The notes under the pieces were generated by a model. That model had not been told where the DNA came from, searched no databases, and saw only the letters and a program-made list of their open reading frames with translations. Source: Zygnema cylindricum (Eukaryota > Streptophyta > Zygnematophyceae > Zygnematales > Zygnemataceae). Taken from it: DNA of 64,000 nucleotides. The stretch is taken from NCBI GenBank assembly GCA_037447655.1, contig JBBHKE010001656.1, positions 62,001-126,000 of the forward strand, given 5' to 3'. Each line of letters opens with the position of its first letter. The first letter of the stretch is position 1. A program made the translations under genes and the position numbers. Positions 39,852 through 59,425 of the stretch are shown here, piece after piece.

Positions 39852-40803
39852 ATGTCTACTTCTACTACTACTGTTGACGCTCCATCTCCTCGAGTGGTTG
39901 TAGAACAACAGATTATGGGCCTGTCATCAAGAATTCCTATTTTATCGCGAGAAAAATACGCATATTGGGCGGATATGGTGGAAACACACTTCAAAAATGT
40001 TAATCTTTTGGATATTTTGGATGGTTCACTGACGGAATCGGATCTGTCTTTGTCAAAGAAAAATTTGCAAGCTTGGTCAATTTTGAAATTTTGTATTTAA
40101 GAAGAATTGGCTATGTCACGGATAAAAATGAAAAAGGCGATCGATATCTGGAAATCTCTCAAGGACGATTTTGAAAAGGCTAATGTTCAAGAAAAACTAT
40201 TCTTGGCTTGACGGATTTGGGACTACAATTACACGAGTGGCACGATAGCAGAATATTGTAATAAATTTTGAATACTACTAGATTCTCATGCTTGTGCAGG
40301 TGGATCTTTTCCTCAGTTTCATCAAGCTGCTTTGCTAATGAGGGGTCTTCCTAATACTATGAGAGCAGCGTCTGATAAGCTGAAACAAAAAGATAAAGCT
40401 AGCTGGACTCTACAGTTAGCTATTAATTTGATATTGGAAGAGGAAGCAGATTCTAAAATTCTTAATGGTGAAAAACAAGTAGAGGCATTTAGCACAGAAT
40501 TTGACAAGAAAGCTCAGTTTAATCAGCAGAGAAATCAATTTAATCAAAATAAGAATCATTTCAAACAGTTTAATCAAAGAGGAAATAGACAATCTTTCAA
40601 TGCTTGTTTTTATTGTAATGAAAAAGGTCATGGATATAAGTTCTGTCCTAAGCTTAAGAAAGCTAATGAAACAGGTCTGCACAGGCCAAGATGGCAGCAA
40701 AGCCAATTTCATCAAGGCTTCACGAGATCATCACAACGAGGAAATGCACTATTATTGGTATTTTCATCTCATCACGACGAGTCTATTTCGCTCTTTGAGA
40801 AGG
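39852..40803 (+). pseudogene. gag: Copia gag (5' part up to the D insertion)
   Basis: This is the structural nucleocapsid precursor that packages element RNA. I start it at ATG 39852 because the upstream GTG at 39840 is not a eukaryotic start and the ATG context is shared with the copy at 56548. One frame (mod 3 = 0) runs through with stops at 40098 and two TGA codons near 40209 and 40269. Landmarks are YWADMVETHFKNVNLLDIL near the N-terminus (UBN2/copia gag type), an Asn/Gln-rich linker, and the zinc knuckle CFYCNEKGHGYKFC (C-x2-C-x4-H-x4-C) at about 40606-40650. The sister copy at 60.4-60.9 kb reads through the first stop as FCISEDLAMS, showing the stop is secondary. Element D interrupts the frame after Phe-Glu-Lys; the frame resumes at 49974. 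Confidence 0.88.
40800..40803 (+). repeat. Target-site duplication AAGG, left
   Basis: AAGG precedes the TGTC start of element D, and AAGG follows the GACA end at 49971-49974. Removing the element and one AAGG joins TTTGAGAAG to GAGGATGATGAT in the copia frame. The result has the same codon number as the uninterrupted copia copy on the minus strand near 54040. Confidence 0.85.
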
Positions 40804-41983
40804 TGTCAAGCTCGTGTGTGTTTTCGGCACACCTTTATTTCCCCCAAATCTTCGGAACCATTTCTACCTGTACGGACATTAGCGTACGGCAAAAGAGGCG
40901 CTCAAAATCGGACCAGATCAAGGGATTTCTTGAACTGAACGGAACGCACTTTATTTCACGCCTAACGGACGCCGAAAAGCCAAGTTATTCCGCTTCAAAG
41001 ATTTCAGTTCTATTACATGCAGCCAGTTGCCACTTGACCTTTTGGGGGTCACATTGTGGAACGCCACGTAACTCTTCGGATAGTCATTTAGATTTGGCCA
41101 TCTTATGTCATTAGGAATTCAGTTCAGGTCCAACTGGCTTTTTGTCCACTAATTAGGTCAGGTCAAAATCTCTCGTTTAAGCGTCAGTTTCAGTACTTTG
41201 TCTTATTGAAGTGGAACCAACTTTGACTTTCAACCAGAAATCTAGTCGTAACTGAAAGCTCATCTTTTTGCCCTAAGCGTAATACAGCTTAATTTGTCTT
41301 TTGTCAGTTCGATAGCATTTGCTTTCCACTGATTGGTTCATTGTATTGCTTTGACTTTTTGGACCGGAAGTGGACAAACTTGGTTGTATAAGGCATTTGG
41401 GCCGAAGGAGACAGGTTGCTTTTCAGTACTGTCTCTTGTGAAAAACCTCAGAGAAATTCCAAACAAACCTTTTTTTGGAGAATCTTTGTTATGCTTGTTT
41501 GCTTGACTCTATTGCCATCTTCGTTTCAATTTGTCTTGCTTGGAGATAGTAGTTCGAGTGGGTAGTTGGCTCTATCAATCCTTTTGGGCGATATTGATCT
41601 TTTGCTATTGAAACTGAGAAGAGTCCAGTCATATCGATATGTGGAAACAGAGTGGTGAAGGAGAATCGTACCGGTCTTCAGTGTCCTTGGGAGATATTTC
41701 GTCTTCCTTTGTGGTCATCTTGGCTTTATGAGGTATGTTGCGCTTGCTTTACCATAATTCTTAATTCTACCTTTAATTCCATTTTTGGGGCAAGGTGATA
41801 TTGTTAAATCTGAATCAGCCAATCATTTCTATTTTTATTTTTTTCACGTGGAAGCTCCCCTGTCCTCCGACTGTAGTCCTTTGGGGATTTTGCTGTGTTC
41901 CCTCCGGAACTAGTTTCGTCCATCTTGGGTACTTAAGCAGGGGGTTCTGAGGGTACAAAAGCTAGACTTCTAGTGGATCAGCA
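40804..41983 (+). repeat. Element D terminal repeat X, left copy
   Basis: About 1180 bases nearly identical to 48500-49680, from TGTCAAGCTCG to TGGATCAGCA. Differences are scattered substitutions of a few percent by eye. Unlike the right copy it is not followed by segment B but passes straight into internal sequence (TAATACTAAAATGC). A cryptic gag-frame extension across it (to 41114) is an artefact of the insertion. Confidence 0.92.
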
Positions 41984-42115
41984 TAATACTAAAATGCAAA
42001 CCTTGTCTACTCAGATTAGAGGAGATATGAGCCTTGATTCAGGAATCTCTCTTAGTGGAAGGGGGTTTTATTTTCTCTTTTTGTATTACTTCCCCTTTCT
42101 AGTGGTTACTATTAG

Positions 42116-44118
42116 ATGGGAGGAGGAGAGGCTCAGGATAGGAGAACTCCTAGCTTCACGCCGGAGGAGGAAGTTAGTCAAGAGGGATCTCCCCCTAGGG
42201 AGGGCTCTCCCAGGACAGAGGAGGCAGTTCAGAAAGCTCCCATGTTTGAATCTCCACCCAAAGGACAGGCCGATGGAAACGTCGCTCCTATCCCCCCAGT
42301 CCTCACTCTTAAACAGTTCCCTTCTCTAGCCGAAGCTGCTCGGGCACAAGCCGAAGAGAAAAGGAAAACGTCTCCCACTTCCCGACAAAAACGGTTGGCC
42401 CATAGGGGGCCAGTTCTCGGGCATTTGCTGGAGGTTGGATTCCATACCCGATCCAAAATTCCAAAGGCCGAGATCCCAATAGACCCTGCGCCGTTAGCCA
42501 ATCCCCGTCATCCTAGTTGTAAGGAACTTTTTGCTCTACATGATCTCCATGAGGTAAAGGTGAAAAAAGAGTTGGTTCAACGTGTGGCTCAGGCCGATCG
42601 AGCTCAGGTGGTTAGACCCGTGGGAGGAGTGATGGAAATTTTGAGCAGTTCCTCTGAAAGTAGCTCATCCCCATCTGAACAGAGTCGACCTCGGAGAGCC
42701 CCATAATTCCGGCCTACGCAATCTTTCTCTCAGGACACCACTACGAGCAAGCTAGCCAGAGGACGTGCCACGTCTCGATCCCTTCCCGGAGAAGGGGGAA
42801 GCAGAGAAGACTTCCTAGATCGTAGGAAGGGGAAGCGATTCGACCACCGGGAAAGTAAAGGAAGATTTGCTCCTATGTCCAAGGAGAAAACTTTTCTAGC
42901 ACCCGATCTCGCCTCGACTGAAGGATTTACCACATCAGTCCCAAAGGGCTCACCTCCTGTGGAGCTTCGTCATTCCAAACCAATCTATTCCGAGGTTCCA
43001 GGTGTAGATTGGGAGAGATCCTTTCCGAAGGATCCCACAGATCGCCCTTCGGGAGGTCTATGGCAAACCGAACTTACAGATCATTAGGTTCCAGGTGTAG
43101 AGGTGGGAGATCTAACGGGGGTCTTAAGCAGTGCTCAGGAATTGGTAAAGAAGTTGAGATCTCTAAGTGGGGCTACGACGGGGGCCAGACCTGTCGAAAT
43201 AGATTGGGAGGCTTTAAAGGAAGAAAAAAAGAAAATATAGGAACAGGAACTACGTCTGATAAGGGACGCACGGCTTAGGTCCAGGGGACTTCTTAGGGAG
43301 CAAATCTCCACATCTCTTATACTTTATCTCTACATCCAGGAGCGGACAAGGGAAGTCGCTCAAGTTCACAAGTTCCACCCTAAGGAGACTCCATCTCAAA
43401 AGTCTCCAGAACTTCCTCTTCAGCGGGGAGGGGGAGGAACAACAGGACCTTATGGAAAGGGTTTGGGTGCAGATTTACGTTTTGAGTTTGCTCCTGTCCC
43501 TCGGGAGAATCGTACCTTTGTATATGTGGAGATCGCCTCTGCCTTGTAGGCTTTGGTGGAATTACGACCAGACGAAAGGGTCCACCTCCCTTTGAGACCA
43601 GCTACTCCTCCTTCCCCGTCTCACGGGCACAATTTTGATCCTACATCCTCTTGTCCTCCGCTCACTTCCTCTCCAGCCTCGGGACCCGCAGCTTATCCCA
43701 AAGACGTTCCCATAAGAGTCCTCGGGTTGACAGTTTAATCACTCGTCAGTGCTGCGCGACGAGAAACTTCCATTCCCGCTTATTCGCCACCTCACCGTTC
43801 TCCATGATCCAGTTTTGAATCTTTCCATTCTCCTCTTGCTGGGCGCACTGCTAGGGGGCAAACCTCGTATCCCAAGCACGGTCCTTCGCCATCCGCGTCT
43901 TCTTCGTCATCTAAAGGAACACCTCTAAACTGCCCGGATCTTCAAATCCCACCGGAAATGAGAAGTAGGCAATCGCGAAGACCTTCAGCACATCGGGGAA
44001 CAAAAGCGTCACCTGGGGGAGACATTTACCTCCCAACCATCTTATCAGAACCGACACTTCCTCAATGGGGGGAAGAGTGGCCATTTCACAAGCTGCTACT
44101 TCCGTTGGGGAAGTAGGT
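42116..44118 (+). pseudogene. Element D ORF1, proline/serine-rich gag-like protein
   Basis: One frame (mod 3 = 2) stays coding-like for about 660 codons, interrupted by stops at 42704, 43085, 43238, 43547 and 43736 and later ones. The N-terminal 200 residues are rich in Pro, Ser, Glu and Arg. Recognisable blocks are RKGKRFDHRES, RPSGGLWQTELTDH, GPYGKGLGADLRFEF and RENRTFVYVEIAS. The last three also occur in the copy at 515-1180, so the frame was under constraint across copies. Beyond 43740 the frame stays Ser/Pro/Arg-rich to 44118. I know no family for it. Its position before a capsid-like gag suggests a gag extension or matrix-like region. The start at 42116 is the first usable position, not a proven initiation codon. 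Confidence 0.6.
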
Positions 44119-44147
44119 GATACAAGATCTGAAATGAAGAGCAATGG

Positions 44148-45240
44148 GTGATTTCTCCCGCACAGTTTGTCAGTCCCACTAGACCTCACTCACCCCAATT
44201 CACTAATCTTGCGGAGGAAGAGAAAGAAATGGGGGACAACCGAGTATTTACGGGAGATAATTCCGGAATTGCATTCTCAGATTTCGAACTGTTTTGGAAA
44301 TCTTTCACTCAGTCCGAAATTAACAAATATCGGGGAGGGGTTATTCCTGATGACTTCGAAACTACCCTCTACCCCATGATGGTCAACTATCTCTTTGGGG
44401 TTGCTTTGGCATATTACAAGGAGCGACAACATCTCCTAATGGCTCCCAGCATCAAAATATCAGATCCGACTCTCGATGCGGCAGTTTTACAAGCGGAAGC
44501 CAATTTGGCTGCAGCGGCAGCCGCACCTGTTTCTCCCGTCTTTACGGAAAACATGAAGCTGCAGGCCCAAGGTCAATCCTACGTTAACCAACTAAAAGCT
44601 ATTAAGGCAGCTCGAGTTGCCACTCGAATGATCGCCAACCCCACTCCGTGCACAACACTCCTCGACGCCTGGAGACTGTTATATACTGAGAGGAATGAGT
44701 CCACCATCAAAGAATTCATGGACTTCCGATGCTTGAAGAATGAGACACCTCAGACCCTTTTCAATAGGATCTCCAGTTTTTGCCGGAAAACCAAGAAATC
44801 AACAATTGATCTTCTAGCAATGGTAACAAAATATTTTATTGCTGTCCGAAATTCGTTTGGACCCACCGGACAGTCTGCTCTAGATAACAAGATCGCAGGC
44901 CAAGCAATTTAAGACATTAAACCCTCGGCTAAAGAAATTTCCCCGGCAGCCATGAAACTGTACGACCACTTCGTTAACAGTGAGGCTAGTGAAGAGGCGG
45001 TCACCGGCAAAGCCATAGCAAATTTCGCCCGGTTTGTCGGAGAAAAATTTTAGAGCAAACAAGAGCAGGATGAACTCTAAGCTTTGCGGAAACTTAAGGG
45101 CAAACAGGCAGCTGATAGTGGATCAGAACCTGCAATGGGGGCGGATGAAAGGATGATTTTGTATAATTGTCTGAACTGTCAGCAGAACGGCCACGGTAGA
45201 AACTGTGCCCCCGGAAACTAAAATCAAAACTCGCTCTGAA
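44148..45240 (+). pseudogene. gag: Element D gag, capsid-like domain and first zinc knuckle
   Basis: The frame (mod 3 = 0) is open from 44148 to 44912 and continues with stops at 44910, 45051 and 45078. The segment after FELFWKSF and before FCRKTKKS is mostly helical in character, with the pattern LLDAWRLLYTERNESTIKEF and FRCLKNETPQTLFNRIS, typical of LTR-retroelement capsids. At 45168-45206 a C-x2-C-x4-H-x3-C element (CLNCQQNGHGRNC) sits where a CCHC knuckle is expected, one residue short of the canonical spacing. The product would form the particle shell. Neighbouring ORF1 is in another frame, so a frameshift lies between 44118 and 44148, or the two were separately translated. Confidence 0.68.
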
Positions 45241-45399
45241 ACAGAAGGAATGGGAAAAAGAAAGGGCCGAAAGAACTCAGAAACAAAACGAAAAGAATCA
45301 AAGAGGGGGTTCGGAGGAAAAAACTCCAATATCAAAGGATAATTACCGCCCAATTCCCCGGTCTGAAACCTCCAAAATGTCTCAAGCCCAGTTGAGACT

Positions 45400-46380
45400 A
45401 ATCAAACTTCCTAAATTCGATGAGCCAAAATTTCTAATGAATTATGGAGCAAATATACTACCGAGGGTTCCAAATGCGAGGCATACGGTTTTATAGGCCA
45501 CAAAGAAGAGCAGTGTTTCCGAAAAAATGGGGTGCCAAAGGAGATGATGCAATACGCCTTATTTATCGGTGAAAGGGAAACCGCCTTGAATTCTTTCCCT
45601 CTTCAGCTCCTTTACCCCTAGGGACGTCGCACAATGGAGGAACCCGAAAGAACACCAGCAAGTCGAGCAACCTGTACCCTGGAAGAGATAATTCAACATC
45701 AAAGCCAGCAATTGGCCGCGATGGCTTCGGAATTAGCGGCCTTACGTTTAAATTCTCCCTTCCGTCCACCTGCTCTGACGCTTGCTCAGAAACTCCAACG
45801 GAAAAGAAAAAACTATTACAAAAGCTAGCGGAGCATGAACAGGAAGCCACGGGGGCTGGAGATGATGACGACATTATGGGATGGGATATGACACCTCCAA
45901 GAGTTAACCATGCCCGGACTTTTCATTCAGGAGCCTAGAATGTAGGGGTGGGGGATAAGCGGAGACAACTCCGTCATACAACATCGGAGCAAAGGAAGGA
46001 CAGACAGGGACTGGCCCTGGGAGATCATAACAGAAAGACCACAGGACCATTGTCATTCACTTCCCGGGCGCTAATACTGAACAATGACACCGGCCTAGGA
46101 ATAAAACCTACAAACCCTTCCCCACAAGCTATGAAGAAATTGCCGCCCCGATTCCCAAAATACAAGTCCGACAAACAAAGGGAGACAGAGAAAAACGCTA
46201 AAAAAGAAGAGAAGCAGAAAACCCAGGACTAGTTTGAACGGTAAATGGCTGAACGCCCGGAGGATGAAACACCAGCAACCCCTCCCACGCCAGGCTTAGA
46301 CGGCGAAAACGAGGAAGCAGGGGGGGGGGGAGCAAGAGGAGCAAAAAACGGAGGAGAATACCCCCATGTCCTCACCTAAA
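45400..46380 (+). pseudogene. Element D gag tail: damaged second knuckle and basic linker
   Basis: At 45475-45516 the frame (mod 3 = 1) gives C-E-A-Y-G-F-I-G-H-K-E-E-Q-C, a CCHC knuckle whose second Cys codon has become Tyr (TAC). The frame continues through a stop at 45618 into a Gln/Leu-rich helix (EEIIQHQSQQLAAMASEL). Near 45810 it shifts to the mod-0 frame, which carries an acidic patch (GAGDDDDIMGWDM) and a long lysine/arginine-rich linker to 46232. A further piece from 46245 includes a run of eleven G at 46320-46330, a likely slippage site. This is the usual spacer between nucleocapsid and protease. No RT-like motif is present. Confidence 0.55.
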
Positions 46381-46502
46381 GCTGTGCCTCTTTCCTCTAA
46401 ACCTGTTGCTATGTAAGTCCGTCACCTAATGCCCTACGCCCTAACACATGTCAAACTCTCGCCTCATCACACAATCTATCAGAAGATATCCTTATTAAGG
46501 CA

Positions 46503-47025
46503 TTGGGAGAGGAAATTCACTTGGGACGGGAGAAGGTAGAGCTGGCAGATCAATCCAGTTCCGTTTTTCTATCCGCCGAACCCAAGACTCCTTTCATGGA
46601 TAGGGATTACAAAGCCTTATCGGTTGCTCTCATCCTCAACCGGACCGGAAATTTCAAGCTCAACAGATACGGGGGCTATCAGGATGCCGTGGTCGATACT
46701 GGTGCGCTTCCAAATTTAATAACAACTTCTGCTTTACAGCAGATGCTTGAGGAATCACGGCCAGAAATTTTACCCAAGCGATATCTGCCTGAGTAGAGTA
46801 AGCAACGGAAGTCAACCAGTCTACGGAATCATCAAAGCTATGGAAATTGAATTCTCAGATGATGTTGGTCAACGAGACATGATCCAGCTCCCGTTTTTAG
46901 TGGTGGAAGGGAAGCAGTTTGAGATTCTGCTGGGGATGGCAACTTGGACTCGACTAAATATGGAGTTGAGTGTGTGGAAGGAGCAGTTCACGGTGAGGGA
47001 CCTCGAAGAGCCCGAAGAGACATAG
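46503..47025 (+). pseudogene. Element D retropepsin-like aspartic protease
   Basis: The catalytic triad Asp-Thr-Gly is at 46695-46703 within DAVVDTGALPNLITTSAL, the standard layout of a retroviral-type protease that matures the polyprotein as a dimer. About 75 residues later FEILLGMATWTRL matches the C-terminal ILG-x-D-type helix of Ty3/gypsy proteases, with Ala-Thr in place of the usual Asp. A frameshift near 46785 moves the frame from mod 0 to mod 1. After that the same frame runs on into the methyltransferase with only a stop at 47023 between them, so protease and DNMT were probably one polyprotein. In an ordinary gypsy element RT would follow here. Confidence 0.78.
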
Positions 47026-48179
47026 GTGGTGGTGCCCTTAGGATTATGGAGTAGGGGAAAGATAAATGCGCCCGTGTCCGGCTGTTACCCCATATATTCC
47101 ACATCCTCCCCTGCTGAACTTTTTGGCTGCTCACTCGATATTGCCAACGAAATATAGCAATTCCCTATTTCTAAGCAGTGGGAAGAGGGATACCAAGCCC
47201 GACTATTTCAGATGGTAGCACTTCGGCGGGGAGTGAAACAGGCTTTTACAGCTATAGCACCAAATGAGATCCTTTCAACTCTTCGGTCAGAATCTTCGGA
47301 AATCCTGTCCCAAGATGGGAAGTTCAACCGACAAGTGATGTCACTGACCATCCCAGCTTCCGGGCTCCGGATTGTATCATTATTTTCAGGAATCATCAGT
47401 GATTTAAAAGCGGTTTTGAAAGCATGATACGTAATAGTGGCGTATACGGCAATGGAAATATCACAAGAAGCTCGAGCCGTTAGCGAGCATCTCCTTCACC
47501 AACTACACCAACTCTATCCTCAACAACTCCCTCTGTCGGCAATCTCCCAAGCTCACCGAAGCTTACCTCAGAATGTGGAAAACATCATGACCCCACACGT
47601 CGCCAGTTTGGGAGGGGTAGATTTGGTAGTAGCAGGATGGCCTTGTCAGTGATACTCCCTAGCCGGAAAATGAAAAGGACATGCACACCAAAGAAGTAGG
47701 ACTTTCTTTAAGATGATATAAGTTATATCATAGATACAACAACTCCAAAACACACCAGTGGGGTATGTTTTGGAAAATTTCCACCCGGGGGATGATCGGC
47801 AACAACAAGTAGCGGACAGTTGGAAACAGGTCACCCAGATTTTAGGAATCCCATTGGTTTTCGACACGACATAGATGGTATCTCGGGCCCACCGAGTAAG
47901 GGCTTATTGGACCAATTTAATTCCAATTCCTATCCTCAGACAGCTCTTGGAAAAGAAGATTCCGAACCACAACAATACAATAAACAAATCCTGAAAAAGA
48001 GGCGAATGGCCACACCCATCACCAAAACTGACCGTTCTCCTTTCTTCAAATGCAACAAACAAGGATTTCCACGCAGAGCTCTTCCATCCTTCATGTCTTC
48101 CCCCCTCCTGGGAGCCAAGCCCTTAGCCCTCAATTACCTGGTTTTGCGGGAGCTGCGAATTGAGCAGATAACAATTTAA
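47026..48179 (+). pseudogene. Element D C5-cytosine DNA methyltransferase (DNMT3/DRM-like), decayed
   Basis: The mod-1 frame, continuous with the protease, carries the ordered motifs of a C5-MTase. Motif I is IVSLFSGI (47371-47394, AdoMet binding). An acidic ME follows about 20 residues later. Motif IV is VDLVVAGWPCQ, with the catalytic Cys in PCQ at 47641-47649. Motif VI is VLENF (47767-47781; usually ENV). Motif VIII is SRAHRVRAYW (47881-47910), close in form to the SAAHRAR block of DNMT3. A shift to the mod-0 frame near 47990 keeps a target-recognition-like piece (TKTDRSPFFKCNKQGFPRR). Stops at 47425, 47650, 47671, around 47719-47736 and 47872 inactivate this copy. Motifs IX-X are not seen; the domain ends just before a polypurine tract. 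The intact enzyme would methylate cytosine in DNA; the site preference cannot be read here. Confidence 0.85.
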
Positions 48180-48198
48180 TGCTTAGTCCCGATTGACT

Positions 48199-48213
48199 AA
48201 GAGGGGGGGAAAA
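48199..48213 (+). promoter_or_regulatory. Polypurine tract of element D
   Basis: Fifteen consecutive purines (AAGAGGGGGGGAAAA) lie between the DNMT frame and segment B. In LTR elements the polypurine tract primes plus-strand synthesis directly before the 3' LTR. Its position therefore argues that the replicated terminal unit begins with B, not with X. Confidence 0.6.
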
Positions 48214-48497
48214 TTGGGACTTCGGCCCGATGACCTCTACGGCCACCCTTTCTCGGTCATATGGGGAAAAGGGAGGGGAAGTGGGGTATTTTTTTCTTCT
48301 TCCCAACCTTGCATTTCTCATCTTGCCTCATTATCTGCAATGCCTTGCATGCACGTCGTCAGGACGCATAGGAGGGCAAAACTGGACATTTTCACTTTTA
48401 TGGGAAGCACCTGCATTCTGGGTTTATTGACAAGATTCTAGGCCGACAATTTACGGCAAAAGCTTTATTCTTTCTGGTGCACCAGGCACGCTCGACA
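48210..48497 (+). repeat. Element D segment B, internal copy
   Basis: 288 bases from AAAATTGGGACTTCGG to CACGCTCGACA, repeated at 49684-49970. The end CTCGACA is followed by GC and then the TGTCAAG start of X. This gives the near-palindrome CTCGACAGCTGTCAAG at 48491-48506, which looks like two element ends joined. Confidence 0.9.
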
Positions 48498-48499
48498 GC

Positions 48500-49680
48500 T
48501 GTCAAGCTCGTATGTGTTTTCGGCACACCTTTATTTTCCCCAAATCTTCGGAACCCTTTCTACCTGTACGGACATCAGCGTACGGCAAAAGGGACGCTCG
48601 AAACCAGACCAGATCAAGGGATTTCCTGAACTGAACGGAACGCACTTTATTTCACGCCTAACGGACGTCGGAAAGCCAAGTTATTCCGCTTCAAAGATTT
48701 CAGTTCTATTACATGCAGCCAGTTGCCACTTGACCTTTTGGGGGTCACATTGTGGAACGCCACGTAACTCTTTGGATAGTCATTTAGATTTGGCTATCTT
48801 ATGTCATTAGGAATTCAGTTCAGGTCCAACTAGCTTTTTTTCCACTAATTAGGTCAGGTCAAAATCTCTCGTTTAAGCGTCAGTTTCAGTACTTTATCTT
48901 ATTGAAGTGGAACGAACTTTGACTTTCAACCAGAAATCTAGTCGTAACTGAAAGCTCATCTTTTTGCCCTAAACGTAATACATTTTAATTTGTTTATTGT
49001 CAATTCGATAGCATTTGCTTTCCGCTGATTGGTTCATTGTATTGCTTTGACTTTTTGGACCGGAAGTGGACAAACTTGGTTGTATAAGGCATTTGGGGCC
49101 AAAGGAGACAGGTTGCTTTTCAGTACTGTCTCTTCTGAAAAACCTCAGAGAAATTCCAAACAAACCTTTTTTTGGAGAATCTTTGTTATGCTTGTTTGCT
49201 TGACTCTATTGCCATCTTCGTTTGAATTTGTCTTGCTTGGAGATAGTAGTTCGAGCGGGTAGTTGGCACTATCAATCCTTTTGGGCGATATTGATATTTT
49301 GCTATTGAAACCGAGAAGAGTCTAGTCGAATCGATCTGTGGAAACAGAGTGGTGAAGGAGAATCGTACCGGTCTTCAGTGTCCTTGGGAGATATTTTGTC
49401 TTCCTTTGTGGTCATCTTGGCTTTATGAGGTATGTTGCGCTTGCTTTACCATAATTCTTAATTCTACCTTTAATTCCATTTTTGGGGCAAGGTGATATTG
49501 TTAAATCTGAAACAGCCAATCATTTCTATTTTTATTTTTTTCACGTGGAAGCTCCCCTGTCCTCCGACTGTAGTCCTTTGGGGATTTTGCTGTGTTCCCT
49601 CCGGAACCGGTTTTTTCCATCTTGTGTACTTAAGCAGTGGGTTATGAGGGTACAAAAGCTAGACTTCCACTGGATCGGCA
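48500..49680 (+). repeat. Element D repeat X, internal copy
   Basis: The 1181-base copy of 40804-41983, ending TGGATCGGCA. It is followed after CTT by the second segment B. The open frame at 48514-48810 is the same cryptic frame seen in the left copy and is not a gene. Confidence 0.92.
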
Positions 49681-49683
49681 CTT

Positions 49684-49970
49684 AAAATTGGGACTTCGGC
49701 CCGATGACCTCTACGGCCACCCTTTATCGGTCATATGGGGAAAAGAGAGGGGAAGTGGGGCATCTTTTTATTCTTCCTAACCTTGCATTTCTCATCTTGC
49801 CTCATTATCTGGAATGCCTTGCATGCACGTTGCCGGGAGGCATGGGAGGGCAGAACTAGACATTTTCATTTTTATGAGAGCACCTGCATTCTGGGGTTAT
49901 TGACAAGATTCAAGGCCGACAATTTACGCCAAAAGCTTTATTCTTTCTGGTGCACCAGGCACGCTCGACA
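49684..49970 (+). repeat. Element D segment B, terminal copy
   Basis: 287 bases matching 48210-48497 with scattered substitutions. It ends in GCTCGACA, directly before the AAGG duplication and the resumed copia frame. Confidence 0.9.
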
Positions 49971-49974
49971 AAGG
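49971..49974 (+). repeat. Target-site duplication AAGG, right
   Basis: Right partner of AAGG at 40800-40803. The copia frame continues from here as Lys-Glu-Asp-Asp-Asp-Leu-Phe. Confidence 0.85.
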
Positions 49975-51693: not shown

Positions 51694-53194
51694 GTCGAAC
51701 ATGGAGGCTCAGACATGGTAGCTTGTGGACCTTCCTCCGGATCGAAAAGCGATCGGCAGCAAATGGGTATTTAAGGTGAAGTTAAATCCAGATAATACCA
51801 TTGAACGTTACAAGGCTAGACCTGTGGCAAAGGGGTATAATCAAAAGGAAAGAATTGACTTTGAAGAAACATTTTCTCCTGTTGTAAGATTTGCGACAAT
51901 TAGGATTTTGCTATCTCTAGCTCCTATAGAAGATATGGAAATATATCAAATAGATGTAAAGACGACCTTTTTGCATGGAGAACTAGAATAGACCATTTAC
52001 ATGCAGCAGCCTGAAATATATGCAGAACCAGGAAAATAACACTTAGTATGTAAGCTGCTAAAATATTTGTACGGCCTAAAACAGGCCCTCAGGCAATGGA
52101 ATCTAAAACTTGATGAATTCTTATTTGGTCTAGATTTTAAAAAGATATGCTTTGATCACTCTGTCTATGTTTTAAAGGGTGATGATGGAATTGTATATAT
52201 CGCGGTATACGTAGATGATTTACTAATAGTTAGCAAATCAATGGCTGAAATTAACAAAATTTAAAATGCTTTAAAATCACGGTTTGAGATGAAAGACCTC
52301 GGTGAGGCAAAGTTTATTTTGGGTATTCAGGTAGTGAGGGACAGGAAAAATAGATCAATAAAATTGACTCAAAGGGAGGCTATTGGAAACATGTTAGATG
52401 AATATAGAATGCGGGGGGGAAAAAGATGTGCAACACCAATGGAGTTTTGGCATATGTTAGAGGGGGAAGAAATAGAACCAGGTGATATTGTCAGTGAAAC
52501 TTTTGAGTCAAGGGAGGATGATCCTATGACACTCATACCTTACAGACAGATAGTGGGAAGTTTAATATATTTTATGAACTCCACCCGTCTGGATATAAAT
52601 GTAGCTGTTGGGGTACTGAGCAAAAGTCTAGAGAATCCAAAGAAATCTGACCGTGATTTAGCAAGAAGAGTTTTAAGATACTTAGGAGGAACGAAAGACC
52701 TCAAACTCACACTTGGCGGAGGAGAAGTGAAGCAGCAAACATAGAGTGATGCAAGCTATGGCGACATGCCAAGCCGGAAATCCACCACGCGATTCATTCT
52801 GCAAATTGGGAACGGGACTTGCTGTTGGAGCAGCAAACTTCAAAAGGTCACGGCACAATCTACGATGGAGTCAAAGTATATGGCAGCAAGCTCGGCCCTC
52901 AAATAACTCTTATGGGTAAAATCCATGTTGCAAGAACTAAGATACATGCAAGTAGAGCCGCAAGGGATCTGGTGTGATAACCACGCTGCCATTGCCATTG
53001 CCTCTAAGCCAAGTCACCACTTCAAAAGTAAACACATGGATGTAAGATTACACTTTGTAAGAGAAAAAGTGTTGTCTAGGGCGATCAAATTATGCAATCT
53101 GCCAGACGCAAGAATGATTGCTGATATGCTTACTAAAGCTCTTCCAGCTCCCAAACTGAGGTATTGTAGGGATGCAGTAGGATTGGGTGAATAG
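51694..53194 (+). pseudogene. pol: Copia reverse transcriptase and RNase H
   Basis: A single frame (mod 3 = 2) runs from the RT fingers (IGSKWVFKVKLNPDNTIERYKARPVAKG, given in parts: WVFKVKLN, YKARPVAKGY) through QIDVKTTFLHGEL and YGLKQALRQW to the polymerase box YVDDLL near 52210. It then continues through KDLGEAKFILGIQ to the RNase H core SDASYGDMPSRKST and ESKYMAAS. It ends with KHMDVRLHFVREKV, ADMLTKAL and a stop at 53192. Stops at 51989, about 52037, 52262, 52742 and 52903 inactivate it. In QAL the usual Pro-Ser/Arg of YGLKQAPR is changed. The enzyme would copy element RNA into DNA. It is in the same orientation as gag and close behind integrase, the copia order. Confidence 0.92.
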
Positions 53195-53366
53195 ATGAGT
53201 TGCTGCACAGTTGCGCTAGCCCAAAATTAAGGTGTAGTGGAACGAGGTGATTAGTTGGTTTGCTTCGCTGCTATAGTGCCATCCAACGCTAAGTGTGACC
53301 TCCCAGTTGCGCTGATACATTGAGTCTAAAGCTTTATAGGAGTGTTGTTTTTGGAAAGTTTAAGTC
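53195..53366 (+). other. Copia 3' untranslated region, polypurine run and LTR stub
   Basis: After the RNase H stop, about 148 bases lead to TATAGGAG and then TGTTGTTTTTGGAAAG at 53343, the LTR start of this family. Only about 24 bases of LTR remain before the sequence jumps into a gag tail (CAAATTCTGTCC). The same stub-to-gag joint occurs inverted near 54230, so the joint predates the inversion. Confidence 0.8.
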
Positions 53367-53913
53367 CAAATTCTGTCCTAAACTTAAACAAGCTAACGAT
53401 ACACGTTTATACAGGCCGGGATGGCAACAAAGTCATTTTTACAAAAGCTTCACAGGGCCTACACCTCGTGGAAATGCACTGTTTATAGCTTCTTCATCAC
53501 TCCAAGACGAGACTCTGACATTTTTTTAAGAGGACGACACGGATCTATTCGCTATGGCAGCAGCAATAGAGGGGGCGAAAGACCATGGATGGATAATATA
53601 TATAGGAGCATAAGCCCACATGTGCAAGAACAAGGCCATCTTCAAAAATGTGAAAGCAACGCTGGAGAAAAATATTTATTATGCTTGTGGAATGAGTGTC
53701 CAGACTCGTGTTGTGGGTGATGTGTCCTCGCTGGTTGATGTAGAAGGAAAAGCAATTGAAAGGACTCTTCACAATGTCTTATTTGTGCCTGACTTTAAGA
53801 AAAATCTGTTTTCCACATCGTTGGTAGAGAGTAAAGGCTTTGAGGTTAATTTGAAAAATGGTCGTCATGTTGTTAGCAAAAATGGCAAGGTTGCGGTTAC
53901 AAGTACTAAATAA
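53367..53913 (+). pseudogene. Second copia fragment: gag tail and protease start
   Basis: It begins in the zinc-knuckle region (FCPKLKQANDT, then YRPGWQQSHF), continues across the gag/protease boundary that element D interrupts in the main copy, and includes a degenerate protease site (IYIGA, then AHMCKN, where the active DTG is lost). It then reads cleanly through NVLFVPDFKKNLFSTSLVES to GKVAVTSTK and a stop at 53911. It shows what the uninterrupted target of element D looks like. The last 235 bases are the spacer of the inverted repeat. Confidence 0.8.
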
Positions 53914-55153
53914 ATATTTTTCTCCGGCGTAGCTTTCAGATTTTTGAATATGGCCTTGTTCAAGCACATGTGGGCTAAAGCTCCTATATATTATCCATCC
54001 ATGGTCCTTCGCGCCCTCCATTCCTGCCGCCATAGCAAATAGATCCATGTTGTCCTCATCAAAAGATGAGAGAGTCTCGTCCTGGAGTGATGAACAAGCT
54101 AAAAACAGTGAATTTCCACGAGGTTTAAGCCCCGTGAAGATTTTGTAAAACTGACTTTGTTGCCATCCCGGCGTGTATAATTCTTTATCGTTAGCTTGTT
54201 TAAATTTGGGAAAGAATTTGGACTTAAACTTTCCAAAAAACAACACTCCTATAAAGCTTTAGACTCAATGTATCAGCACAACTGCGAGGTCACACTTAGC
54301 GTTGCATGGCACCATAGCAGCGAAGCAAACCAACTAATCACCTCGTTCCACTACACCTTAATTTTGGGCTAGCGCAACTGTGCAGCAACTCATCTATTCA
54401 CCCAATCCTACTGCATCCTTACAATAAGGAAGAGCTTTAGTAAGACTGCATCCTTAGAATAAGGAAGGGCTTTAGTAAGCATATCAGCAATCATTCTTGC
54501 GTCTAACAGATTGCATAATTTGATCGCCCTAGCCAACACTTTTTCTCTTACAAAGTGTAATCTTACATCCATGTGCTTACTCTTGAAGTGGTGACTCTGG
54601 TTAGAGGCAATGGCAATGGGAACCTGGTTGTCACACTAGATCACGTGCGGCCCAACCTGCATGTATCGTAGTTCTTGCAACATGGATTTTACCCATAAGA
54701 GTTCTTTGAGGGTCGAGCTTGCTGCCATATATTCTGACTCTTTTGTCCATTGTACTGTAACCTTTTGAAGTTTGCTGCTCCAGCAGCAATTTCCGTTCCC
54801 AATTTGCAAAACGAATCGCGTGGTGGATTTCCGGCTTGGCAAGTCGCCATAGCTTGCATCACTCCACGTTTGCAACTTCACTTCTTCTTAGCCTAAAGTG
54901 AGTTTGAGGTCTTTAGTTCCTGCCAAATATCTTAAGACTCTCCTTGCTGCATCAAGATCAGATTTTCTCGAATTCTCTAGACTCCTGCTCAGTACCGCGA
55001 CTGTTGCAGCAATGTCAAGACGGGTACAGTTCATGAAATATATTAAGCTTCCCACTATCTATCTGTAAGGTATTTGGGTCATAGACTCATTCTCCCCTGA
55101 CTCTAAATACTTACTAATATTGACACCTGGTTCTATCTCTCCTCCCTCTAACT
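53911..55153 (-). pseudogene. Inverted copia fragment: RT end, RNase H, LTR stub, gag tail
   Basis: On the minus strand, in reading order: QIVGSLI-type RT end region near 55060, RNase H core TWSDASYGDLPSRKST and ESEYMAASS (54881-54636), the KHMDVR and ADMLTKAL blocks, the 3' UTR, LTR stub TGTTGTTTTTTGGAAAG near 54246, then gag tail FPKFKQANDKELY and GWQQSQF, ending near the protease site. A 37-38 base tandem duplication (GACTGCATCCTTA...GCTTTAGTAAG) sits at about 54408-54480. Frames are broken in several places. RNase H keeps SDASYGD and the Glu of ESEYMA. Confidence 0.85.
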
Positions 55154-55638
55154 ACTACGGAAACTTCAGCAAGCTCCGTCCTTAAAGAACTCTTATGGGT
55201 GAAATCCATGTTGCAAGAATTGGGATACATGCAGGTTGGACCACAGGCAATCTGGTGTGATAACCAGGCTGCCATTGCTATTGCTTCTAACCTGAGTCAC
55301 CACTTCAAAAGTAAGCACATGGATGTAAGATAACACTTTCTAAGAGAAAAAGTGTTCGCTAGAGTGATTAAATTATGCTATCTACCAGATGCAAAAATGG
55401 TTGCTGATATGCTCACTAAAGCTCTTCCAGCTCCTAAGTTGAAGTATTGTAGGGACGCAGTGGGATTAAGTGAATAACTGATTTGCTACGTTGCTATGCT
55501 GCGATGATCTACTAGTCTAATAACGTGGATGTAGTAGGACTAGGTGACTTGCTAAATTTCTATGTTGCTATGTTGCGATGCTCCGCTAGTTCGACATCGA
55601 AGCTGCGCTGGCATACTGAGTTTAAAGCTTTAGGGGAG
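55154..55638 (+). pseudogene. Third RNase H C-terminal fragment and 3' UTR
   Basis: It starts inside RNase H with LKELLWVKSMLQELGYMQV and runs through the IWCDNQAAIAIAS, HHFKSKHMDVR, ADMLTKALPAPK and YCRDAVGLSE blocks to a stop near 55480. After 150 bases comes TTTAGGGGAG and the LTR at 55639. A stop replaces Leu after HMDVR. The orientation flips back to plus at 55154, so this fragment and the LTR after it form the right end of the rearranged cluster. Confidence 0.85.
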
Positions 55639-56547
55639 TGTTGTTTTTGGAAAGCTTTAAGTCTTAAGCAAATTTATAGGACGGGAGAAAAATAGATATA
55701 TATGGACACACGTCGTCACTTGAAGCACAGTGCAAGTTTTGAATGGTAGTGACAACGCAGCTGCTACGCAGATGGAACAAGCGCAGCTGCGGTTATTTTT
55801 GATATGGTCTGTACGGACGAACGGAGCCTCCGACACAACGGGACAAACGCAATTGCTGATATTTTGGTACAGAACAACGCAGTTGCTATGGAACAAGACC
55901 AACGCAGCTAGAGTTGTTTTTGGTATTAGACATCGCAGCTGTTACGAAGCCGCATATATTTGAATGAGATCAGGATTGTGATTGCGCTGCTACGGTTGAT
56001 ATGAATTGAGTCAACAGACGAGATTCATAAGGGAATAATTAAGTGACTCGCTAACAGATGTTCTAAAACAGCCGGATGGACGTACCGAATCAATCGTCAC
56101 TAAGCCAGGCGACAACTATTTGAACAAATCACTTGTATAGGATTCTCAGTTATATTGATTGTACACTGATATATAAGTTTTAGCGTGATCAGGAGCACTT
56201 AGACCTTAGTGGCACTTTAGTTCTTTTGGATGTATCTTTTCGGAACGCTTCTACCGGCGGTACAGCACTATGTAGAAGGACAACTAAGTGAAGACTTAGG
56301 ACGTAGAACATTTTATGTATCTAGACTTCTAGACTGTGTAATCTGCACACTATTTTTAGGAAACTTCTTAGTTGCATATCTTGGTGTATGTAGGATCATT
56401 TGAGCTGAAACTTTCGGAGTTGTCAGTATTTGTGATATTCTATACTGTGGTATAGTTTGAAGCAGGTTGTTACATTGTGTTAGTTTTGGTGAGCTCTAGA
56501 AAATAGTTGTATAATAGGATTCTTGATAAGCTTTTGTGAGTGAGAAT
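55639..56547 (+). repeat. Copia LTR and leader, uninterrupted copy
   Basis: It starts TGTTGTTTTTGGAAAGCTTT behind a purine run. It matches the 5' LTR at 37592-39851 without the 1.36-kb insertion, so the natural LTR plus leader is about 900 bases. CAGCTG cores recur near the 5' third. It is followed by gag, so it acts as a 5' LTR of a truncated copy, or as a shared LTR between tandem copies. Confidence 0.82.
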
Positions 56548-56610
56548 ATGTCTTCTTCCACGACTACTGTTGGCGCTCCATCTCCTCCAGTGGTCGTAGA
56601 ACAACAATTA
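56548..56610 (+). pseudogene. gag: Copia gag start, cut by satellite
   Basis: ATG at 56548 opens MSSSTTTVGAPSPPVVVEQQ, the counterpart of the 39852 start. At about 56608 the sequence changes from GTAGAACAACA to 40-bp satellite (ATTATTGCTAAC). The two share AACAA at the joint. The junction is inside gag, not at an LTR end, so it is a rearrangement breakpoint. Confidence 0.82.
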
Positions 56611-59150
56611 TTGCTAACTCTTTGTGTAAGTTAGGTAACCATTCTTGTTAGCGCTAACAGTTTGTGTAAGTTAGATAACAATTCTTGTTATCGCTAATTG
56701 TTTTTGTTATTTAGGTAATAATTCTTGTTATCGCTAACAATTTGTGTAATTTAGGTTACAATACTTGTTATCGCTAAAAGTTTGTGTAATTTAGGTAACT
56801 ATTCTTGTTATCGCTAACGGTTTGTGTAATTTAGGTAACAAATCTTGTTATCGCTAACAATTTGTGAAATTTAGGTCACAATTCTTGTTATCCCTAACAG
56901 TTTGTGTAATTTAGGTCACAATTCTTGTTATCGCTAACTGCTTGTGTAATTTAGGTCACAATTCTTGTTATCCCTAACAATTTGTGTAATATTGGTTACA
57001 ATTCTTGTTATTGCTAACAGTTTGTGTAATTTAGGTAATAATTCTTGTTATCGCTAACTTTTTTTTTAATTTAGGTAACAATTCTTGTTAGATCTAACAG
57101 TTTGTGTAAGTTAGGTAGCAATCCTTGTTATCGCTAAATGTTTATGTAATTTAGGTAACAATTCTTGTTAGCGCTAACAATTTGTGTAAGTTAGATAACA
57201 ATTCCCGTTATTGGTAACAGTTTGCGTAAGTTAGGTAACAATTCTTGTTAGCGCAAACTGTTTGTGTAATTTAGATAAGAATTCCTGTTATCGCTAACTC
57301 TTTGTGTAATTTAGGTCACAATTTTTGTTATCGCTAACTATTTGTGTAATTTAGGTAACAATTCTTGTTATCGCTAACAATTTGTGTAATTTAGGTTACA
57401 ATTCTTGTTATCGCTAACAGTTTGTGTAAGTTAGATAATAATTCTTGTTATCGCTAACAATTTGTGTAATTTAGGTAACAATTCCTGTTATCGCTAACAA
57501 TTTGTGTAATTTAGGTAACAATTTTTATTAGCGCAAACAACTTGTGTAATTTAGATATCAATTCCTGTTATAGCTAACTGTTTGTGTAATTTAGGTAACA
57601 ATTCTCCTTATTGCTAACAATTTGTGTAATTTAGGTAACAATTCTTGTTATCGCTAACTGTCAGTGTAATTTAGGGAACAATTCTTGTTATCGCTAACAA
57701 TTTGTGTAATTAAGGTTACAATTATTGTTGTCGCTAACAGTTTGTGTAATTTAGGTAATAATTCTTGTTAGCGCTAACAGTTTTTGTAATTTAGGTAACA
57801 ATACTTGTTATCGCTAACAGTTTTTGTAACTTAGGTGACCATTCTTGCTGTCGCTAACAGTTTGTGTAAATTAGGTGATAATTCTTGTTAGTGCTGACTG
57901 TTTTTGTAATTTAGGTAACAATTTTTGTTATCGCTAACTGTTGTTGTAATTTAGGTAACAATTTTTGTTATCAATAACAGTTTTTGTAATTTAGGTAACA
58001 ATACTTGTTATCGCTGACAGTTTGAGTAAGTTAGAGAATAATTCCTGTTATCGGTAACAGTTTGCGTTAGTTAGATAACAATTCTTGTTAGCGCTAACAG
58101 TTTGTGTAAAATAGGTTACAATTGCTGTTATCGCTAAATGTTTAAGTAATTTAGGTAATAATTCTTGTTAGGGCTAACAGTTTGTGTAATTTAGATAACA
58201 ATTCCCGTTACGGCTAACAGTTTGCGTAAGTTAGGTCACCATTCTTGTTAGCGCTAACAGTTTGTATAAATTAGGTAACAATTCTTGTTATTGCTAACTG
58301 TTTGTGTAATTTAGATAACAATTCTTATTATCCCTTATAGTTTGTGTAATTTAGGTAACAATTTTTGTTATCGCTAACAGTTTCTGTAATTTAGGTAAGA
58401 ATTATTCTTATTGCTAACAGTTTGTGTAACTTAGGTAACCATTCTTGTTAGTGCTAACAGTTTGTGTAAGATAGATAACAATTCTTGTTAGCGCTAACAG
58501 TTTGTGTAATCAAGGTAACAATTATTATTATCGCTAATAGTTTGTGTAACTTAAGTAACCATTCTTGTTAGTGCTAACAGTTTGTGTAAGTTAAATAACA
58601 ATTCATGTTATCGCTAAGAGTTTGTGTAATTTAGGTAACAATTTTTGTAATCGCTAACTGTTTGTGTAATTTAGGTAACAATTCTTGTTATTGCTAACAG
58701 TTTGTGTAAGTTAGATAACAATTCATGTTATCGCTAACAGTTTATGTAACTTAGGTAACCATTCTTGTTATCCCTAACAGTTTGTGTAAGTTAGGTAACC
58801 ATTCTTGTTAGCGCTAACAGTTTTTATAAGTTGGAATACAATTCTTGCTATCGCCAACAGTTTGTGTAATTTAGGTAACAATTCTTGTAATCGCTAACTG
58901 TTTGTGTAATTTAGGTAACAATTCTTGTTATCAGCTGTTTTTGAGGTAGTCTGTGGGTGTTTCTGTGGGTAATCCATGGCAATAAAAGGCTATGAACAAC
59001 AAACAATTCATGTTAGCGCAACCAGTTTGTGCTATTTAGATAACAATTCCTGTTATCGCTAATTGTTTGTGTAATTTAGGTAATAATTTTTGTTATCGCT
59101 AACAATTTGTGTAATGTAGGTAACAATTCTTTTTAGCGATAACAGTTTGT
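56608..59150 (+). repeat. 40-bp satellite, second block (about 63 monomers)
   Basis: Same monomer and orientation as the main array (GTTTGTGTAATTTAGG, TTGTTATCGCTAAC), but with frequent GTTAGCGCTAAC and GTAACCATTCTTG variants, like 35-37.6 kb. A flank motif interrupts it at 58933-59001; satellite resumes for about 150 bases. The block is probably the far side of the array that the copia cluster split. Confidence 0.96.
58933..59001 (+). repeat. Satellite-flank motif, internal copy
   Basis: It carries GCTGTTTTTGAGGTAGTCTG, a middle section near CCATGGCAATAAAAG, and GGCTATGAACAACA, matching 2221-2288. Here satellite lies on both sides, so it marks the start of a second array unit rather than the outer edge. 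Confidence 0.75.
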
Positions 59151-59425
59151 GTGTTGAAATTATTATTTTTATATGGTATTTTCTAGGTCTGAATTTAGTA
59201 CAAATAGAAATAGGTGGACAGCCTGCCTCCGCCTCCTCTCTCTTCCCACCATACTTGTCGTAGTCACAGAGGGATAGAGAGGGTGGGTGAGCCATGGCTC
59301 TCCTAGCTTAAGCAGGCAGGGCTAAAGAGTGACTCATGTCACTCTCAACAAAAGGTTGTGTCCGGCAGGACTCGAACCTCCGACCGGTGGAGCGCGGCTT
59401 AGCCGTTAGCACTAAACCAATCTGT
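59150..59425 (-). mobile_element. SINE-like element with tRNA-derived head
   Basis: On the minus strand, an A-box-like TTGGTTTAGTGCTAACGG (near 59415-59398) and a perfect-looking B box GGTTCGAGTCC (near 59365-59355) are spaced as in a pol III promoter. The body runs about 200 bases to an A/T-rich tail (ATATAAAAATAATAATTTC near 59150). The acceptor stem does not pair well, so it is not an intact tRNA gene. No target duplication was found by eye. The tail abuts the satellite end. Confidence 0.45.

Follow-up and report, generated by a model that had tools for sequence, protein, structure and literature searches.

Structure of the element in the window

The stretch of Zygnema cylindricum DNA analysed here (the window; 64,000 nucleotides, positions 62001-126000 of contig JBBHKE010001656.1, C1243 in our numbering, from an assembly of 352.8 Mb in 2,689 contigs) contains the remains of a Ty3/gypsy-type long terminal repeat (LTR) retroelement that carries a cytosine DNA methyltransferase (DNMT) of the DNMT3 type. 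Such elements are known from one green alga; the family found here is wider than we found described, and a conserved stop codon ahead of its DNMT is new. The insertion occupies 40804-49970 (9,167 bp), encloses the interval 46503-48179 in which the original prediction had seen a retropepsin followed by a C5-methyltransferase, and lies inside a Ty1/copia element, with copia coding sequence at both flanks and the target-site duplication AAGG on either side (40800-40803 and 49971-49974).

All parts of the insertion are on the plus strand. The left copy of terminal repeat A, which starts with TGTC (40804-41983), is 95.8% identical over 1184 bp to 48497-49680, and the two repeat A copies differ at 48 of 1,180 sites (Kimura two-parameter distance 0.042). 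It is followed by the remnant of a first open reading frame (ORF) with no assigned function (42116-43306), which tblastn with the ORF 1173-2408 of the own-genome relative L009 recovers at 44% identity (E 1.9e-70, three stops); an ORF upstream of Gag in this position is common to the window copy and its relatives. A Gag remnant with a CCHC-like knuckle, spread over three frames (44148-45537), matches the Gag ORF of L009 at 64-82% identity, and a retropepsin-like protease (PR) remnant at 46401-47022 lies in two frames, 46401-46793 and 46723-47022, which match the L009 protease at 74% (E 2e-55) and 81% (E 1e-50) identity, respectively. The PR of the relative L006 reached 22.3 bits (2.1e-4) against PF13650, below the cut-off of 24.3 bits. 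Behind PR stand an in-frame TAG (47155-47157) followed by CAATTC, a stop-free linker beginning QFPIS (47158-47361; 54% identity to L009), the DNMT remnant with motifs I, IV (PCQ), VI and VIII (47362-48086), and the remnant of a C-terminal PHD finger (48094-48168), aligned by eye to the end of L010 2-652. The inner copy of repeat B (48210-48497), right behind a purine run, is 93% identical to the right copy (49684-49970), which ends in GACA; between them lie a GC (48498-48499), forming the junction GACA-GC-TGTC, and the right copy of repeat A (48500-49680).

The predicted methyltransferase is real, since tblastn with L009 matches 47362-47988 at 64% identity over 209 residues (E 3e-88, across six stops), far beyond chance. 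The profile search suggested as a check gave a divided result: none of eight stop-free window pieces (five from the DNMT part) matched PF00145 alone, whereas the relatives L006 (2.6e-13) and L001 (6.8e-14) did. The claim of one continuous frame from PR into the DNMT also held in part only. The end of the retropepsin, QFEILLGMATW (about 46915-46947), does share its frame with QFPIS, SLFSGI, PCQ, ENF and SRAHRVRAYW, but this frame holds nine stops (47023, 47155, 47425, 47650, 47671, 47719, 47731, 47872 and 47992, six of them within the DNMT match), the half of PR with DTG (46401-46793) is in a different frame, and the DNMT remnant, which also contains a frame change, has lost motifs IX-X and is followed by no RT (reverse transcriptase).

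It had further been proposed that the DNMT sits where RT should be. In the relatives, RT, RNaseH and integrase (IN) come after the DNMT in the same frame, and therefore the DNMT replaces nothing. The DNA homology of the window copy to L009 stops at about 48086, within the DNMT, tblastn with the RT-IN and IN-PHD pieces gave no match in the window copy, and about 3.6 kb is absent from it compared with L009/L010. RT, RNaseH and integrase were evidently removed by an internal deletion, which brought the PHD remnant beside the DNMT remnant and created the impression of a replacement, an idea that we reject. The window copy is evidently an old, internally deleted and non-functional Ty3/gypsy-type element in which the first ORF, Gag, PR and DNMT are all broken.

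Domain architecture of relatives in the same genome

Searching the own genome for PF00145 returned 782 candidates, of which only the best were scored; all 123 scored matches were over the cut-off, and 123 is thus a lower bound. The copies examined, some of which overlap, were L001-L008, 10 long ones and 20 short pieces. In L009/L010, which represents family A, to which the window copy belongs, the frame after the stop encodes DNMT, RT, RNaseH, H2C2, the integrase core and a terminal PHD finger, and in L021/L022 of family B a single frame encodes a Gag knuckle, DNMT, RT, RNaseH, integrase and PHD. The Pfam match of the PHD finger has E 6.1e-11 in family B and E 3.7e-4 in family A, the latter below Pfam's cut-off. 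The integrase has the DDE core PF00665 in the L009 and L021 frames, for which the Pfam scan listed no tyrosine recombinase PF00589, and the best solved match to the RT of the relatives is that of Ty3 (E 5.9e-38). The order PR, RT-RNaseH, DDE integrase, the TG..CA ends and the short target duplication all place the family in Ty3/gypsy, with the RT-IN part deleted in the window copy. In the relatives a DNMT3-type DNMT lies inside the gypsy Pol frame, as in the published gypsy-Dnmt3 type, and the window copy retains PR and part of the DNMT only. The DNMT is not a chance neighbour, as PR-DNMT-RT recurs in own-genome copies and the DNMT is joined to RT in proteins of other organisms.

Type, selection and origin of the methyltransferase

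In the relatives, the domain has the catalytic motifs I, IV, VI, VIII, IX and X in non-rearranged order and a DNMT3-like fold, and its best profile and fold match is the catalytic domain of human DNMT3A/DNMT3B; DNMT1 was not among the solved relatives at E 1e-3, which does not amount to its exclusion. Human DNMT3A has PCN at motif IV, whereas the retroelement enzymes have PCQ or ECQ, with 23-29% identity in the structural alignments listed. The mixed motif character remarked on in the original prediction is genuine, and the domain is DNMT3-type overall. Among 77 related proteins described below, the catalytic Cys is preceded by Glu in 39 and by Pro in 29; the pattern left 9 unread, and the six of these that were inspected have Glu (five) or Asp (one). 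The DNMT tree requires at least six Glu/Pro changes at this motif. The DNMT is under purifying selection, with a ratio of nonsynonymous to synonymous substitution rates (Ka/Ks) of 0.08-0.38, which falls below 0.2 in 7 of 17 computable within-family pairs.

The domain may ultimately derive from a host DNMT3 or from a phage or viral source. A first scan of viral contigs found no relative; a second gave 142 loci, the best 80 of which have 25-33% identity, and 20 of these entered the tree. These 20 IMG/VR phage enzymes (among L052-L131) combine PCQ with DNMT3-like motifs, and they score 72-100 bits on the retroelement profile, compared with 85.5 for DNMT3A pieces. Descent from a DNMT3-like enzyme of a phage or giant virus, and not from a host DNMT3 gene, would accord with this likeness, but we regard it as doubtful, because the 2018 description (de Mendoza et al. 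2018, PMC5890265) assigns the Klebsormidium elements to a group with eukaryotic Dnmt3 and our tree has a single DNMT3A outgroup that leaves the root undecided.

A conserved stop codon ahead of the methyltransferase

The codon before QFPIS is a stop in all 28 readable family A places of this genome, including the window (26 TAG, 2 TAA), and CAATTC follows directly in 24 of them, while any other codon from -45 to +94 is a stop in at most 3 of the 28 copies. L007 and L029 were unreadable at this junction, and the family B places L004, L005, L021, L023 and L025 are without this junction sequence. The stop and its context are common to subfamily A1, with 19 places, and subfamily A2, with 9, although their DNMT proteins are only 54-59% identical and the synonymous divergence (dS) is saturated in 20 of 20 pairs. 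Behind the stop, the frame is open into the integrase in L009 and L019. UAG-CAA-UU is similar to the leaky stop context of plant RNA viruses. The junction thus shows what programmed readthrough would call for, an in-frame stop that selection has retained with an open and selected frame after it, and ribosomes probably read through this stop in family A. LTR elements are known to make Pol by reading through an in-frame stop (PMC10085805).

Two other explanations of the stop were weighed. The TAG might provide the AG of a 3' splice site, Pol with the DNMT then being made from spliced RNA, and a rather pyrimidine-rich run does precede the stop in both branches (most commonly TCTATC-TAG in A1 and CTTATA-TAG in A2). 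However, the stop shares its frame with both the upstream PR and the downstream DNMT, which splicing would not need; moreover, any AG would do for splicing, yet every one of the 28 codons is a stop, and two of them are TAA, a codon that offers no AG. We consider splicing improbable. Slightly less probable still is that an old mutation inactivated a master copy, which then passed the stop on, or that Pol starts separately behind it. The stop is indeed common to all readable copies of the subfamilies, many of which are decayed, but the selection on the frame behind it and its open extent in L009 and L019 speak against inactivation. A separate start could use an AUG that precedes motif I, at residue 19 after the stop, in 3 of the 4 A1 copies checked; this AUG tells slightly for a separate start and slightly against our main interpretation as a whole. 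In A2, the first AUG lies past motif I (residue 96 versus 82) in six of nine copies, at 79 in one and unread in two, so a start there would lose the S-adenosylmethionine site in most A2 copies.

Terminal repeats and integration

The elements end in TGTC..GACA, repeat B begins after a G-rich purine run, and GC separates it from the next repeat A. The junction ACAGCTGTC is present in the window and at the six other B/A junctions read (L010, L012, L018, L022, L024 and L026); five of these have the exact CGACAGCTGTCA, and L012 has A for G before ACA. Among the 11 long copies, that of the window included, six show the repeat order A..B-A-B and one shows B-A-B without the left A, whereas four gave no resolved pattern. 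Three of the six copies in which both ends were read are bounded by exact 4-bp target duplications (AAGG in the window, TTGG in C1344 and ACGT in C507). The complementary DNA (cDNA) thus appears to have been integrated in a permuted form, A-coding-B-GC-A-B, and this arrangement suggests a circular intermediate. If reverse transcription is primed where it usually is, the product would have B-GC-A at both ends, and joining these ends and opening the circle at the other B-GC-A would yield the repeat form seen. A primer site was not recognised in the element copies.

The same arrangement could in principle come from tandem insertion or from recombination after integration instead of replication. 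Rearrangements do occur in these elements, as L009/L010, itself one of the six A..B-A-B copies, has an extra partial copy, a first B end (L010 909) without GC-TGTC behind it and flanks without a duplication, and the four long copies with no resolved pattern could be read in the same way. Nevertheless, the arrangement is found in six of 11 long copies from two divergent families, and in the family B copy L021/L022 the A repeats (L021:1658-2588 and L022:1125-2055) are identical over 931 bp, a sign of recent insertion, and the B repeats are 99.6% identical. The Klebsormidium element also has this repeat order (Fig. 4 legend, PMC5890265). Tandem insertion or recombination is therefore an unlikely source of the permuted form, and we prefer integration of a permuted cDNA.

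Elsewhere, the window contains a huge 40-bp AT-rich satellite array of about 882 copies (2285-37591), whose unit recurs about 64 times at 56608-59152, and 52440-55663 consists of nested inverted pieces, partly copia-like, with arms that are 78-96% complementary. In the assembly as a whole, the Pfam family of rbcL found no match, so that it offered no plastid marker.

Relatives in other organisms

Three protein searches yielded 26, 7 and 44 proteins (77 in total), with Marchantia polymorpha, Closterium sp. NIES-53 and NIES-54, Klebsormidium nitens and Haematococcus lacustris as named sources and many entries without an organism name. RT comes first in 35 and the DNMT in 9, and in 33 either RT or DNMT was not found. 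A DNMT tree of 83 rows was built by a quick search with support from the Shimodaira-Hasegawa-like approximate likelihood ratio test (SH-aLRT) only; it comprises 74 of the 77 proteins (P0026, P0032 and P0033 were dropped), 8 own-genome rows and DNMT3A. In it, a single clade of 47 rows (SH-aLRT 100) takes in every one of the 35 RT-first proteins, and the fewest domain-order changes on this tree are two, one of which is due to Haematococcus P0076, labelled DNMT-first though no RT was found in it. In another DNMT tree, the window family groups with the proteins from Klebsormidium, Closterium and Marchantia in a single clade (100/99) against DNMT3A and P0033, and even with so few outgroups this makes the separate capture considered in the original prediction unlikely. 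An RT tree of 17 rows recovers the same groups, except that the Klebsormidium protein, on a long branch, adjoins the RT-first clade (93/96) and so takes a different place within the clade than in the DNMT tree. The K. nitens protein in the DNMT clade of the window family, P0025, is by species and domains presumably the published KnitGypsy-Dnmt3 element, and the DNMT clade points to common ancestry with it.

Four Marchantia proteins (P0003, P0005, P0010 and P0014) have a Gag-like knuckle and a DNMT of this clade, which indicates that a land plant also carries it. RT was not found in these four protein sequences, of which P0003 ends shortly after the DNMT, and the Marchantia enzyme may be made together with Gag. 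Two relatives from other collections, P0044 and P0071, have a precomputed G-patch domain (PF01585), a domain known from some retroviral proteases. Taken together, the distribution suggests one old capture retained in streptophytes (Klebsormidium, Closterium and Marchantia), a chlorophyte (Haematococcus) and the own genome, with one clear change of domain order.

Proposed function and its significance

We think it likely that the window holds a decayed member of a gypsy-DNMT3 family that uses UAG readthrough, packs its DNMT with RT, methylates its own cDNA and integrates in permuted form. A gypsy family would have taken up a DNMT3-type cytosine methyltransferase long ago. In family A, translation through PR would end at UAG-CAA-UUC, and a fraction of ribosomes would pass the stop into DNMT-RT-RNaseH-integrase-PHD, so that the methyltransferase would be made at the low amount of Pol and packed with RT. 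Its most likely substrate would be newly made cDNA of the element itself, either ahead of integration or during it, as was proposed by the authors of the 2018 study (PMC5890265).

Several observations weigh against this proposal. An assay of the Klebsormidium enzyme in yeast showed no methylation, a result that its authors called inconclusive (PMC5890265). Besides the AUG of A1, which could start Pol without readthrough, and the possibility that the TAG belongs to a splice acceptor, the hairpin downstream of the stop (columns 14-18 with 27-31) has one covarying pair, maybe from a single event, and a competing fold at columns 7-11 with 26-30 that RNAalifold prefers; a readthrough hairpin is therefore not established. 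No joint between Gag and PR could be made out for family A, and the target duplication is imperfect in three of six copies (3 of 4 bases in C1100 and C449, 1 of 4 in C1374). Self-methylation would be expected to leave CpG depletion as a scar, but the depletion seen is mild and lacks specificity. The observed/expected ratio is 0.61-0.70 in family A (four first 10-kb pieces) and 0.69 in the window element, compared with 0.84-1.13 in family B (four) and 0.66 in the neighbouring copia element; two other stretches of the window have 0.85-0.86 and two host flanks 0.78-1.01. Such a scar is not established, and this weak test neither supports nor refutes self-methylation.

A broader picture can be offered tentatively: an old gypsy clade of green algae and at least one liverwort, with a DNMT3-like enzyme that often has ECQ, might replicate by way of a two-LTR-like circle, opened by its DDE integrase at the internal GACA-GC-TGTC, and the subfamily in the window might dose its DNMT by UAG readthrough to methylate cDNA. 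If true, replication features of gypsy and DIRS elements would be united in one element. Methyltransferase-carrying retroelements reverse the usual arms race, as the target of silencing encodes the silencing enzyme, and the old, widely retained capture that the data suggest would make this more than the peculiarity of a single alga. Three features bear on why elements retain the enzyme and how they integrate, namely the conserved stop, the permuted repeats and the ECQ enzyme, and the broader clade with its permuted repeats is the more interesting part.

Comparison with known systems

Among the publications listed in literature searches, none dealt with such elements in Marchantia or Haematococcus, none with a PHD finger in them, and none with split repeats in gypsy elements beyond the 2018 paper; another paper notes DNMT3, without further detail, in streptophyte and dinoflagellate elements of the LTR and DIRS types (PMC12344493). 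As the original prediction stated, capture of a DNMT by a retroelement has been published for a charophyte, namely KnitGypsy-Dnmt3 of Klebsormidium nitens (de Mendoza et al. 2018, PMC5890265). Like the family described here, it has a Dnmt3-type DNMT within the gypsy Pol frame and a DIRS-like repeat order, the latter stated in a figure legend without an analysis of ends or junction in the text (PMC5890265). Purifying selection on its DNMT is published as Ka/Ks under 0.2, a level reached by the 7 of 17 pairs given above for our family. Unlike it, family A has an in-frame TAG before the DNMT and a PHD finger at the end of Pol, and the main text of the 2018 paper mentions neither PHD nor readthrough (PMC5890265); for our family we also report the element ends, the GC junction and the target duplication.

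SymbioDIRS-Dnmt3 and SymbioLINE-Dnmt of dinoflagellates are likewise retrotransposons with cytosine methyltransferases, of the Dnmt3 type and within Pol in SymbioDIRS (PMC5890265). They differ in that the DIRS element has a tyrosine recombinase and the LINE an endonuclease, whereas our family has the DDE integrase PF00665. DIRS elements are not known to produce a target duplication, and with a DDE integrase core and a 4-bp duplication the family does not belong among them.

In gammaretroviruses, Pol is reached by readthrough of an in-frame stop, which lies between Gag and the PR-RT-IN part. The Tj1/Tosmo-type gypsy elements of fission yeasts similarly read through an in-frame stop for Pol; theirs is a TGA between Gag and the PR-RT-IN part (PMC10085805), whereas in the family described here a TAG stands between PR and the captured DNMT.
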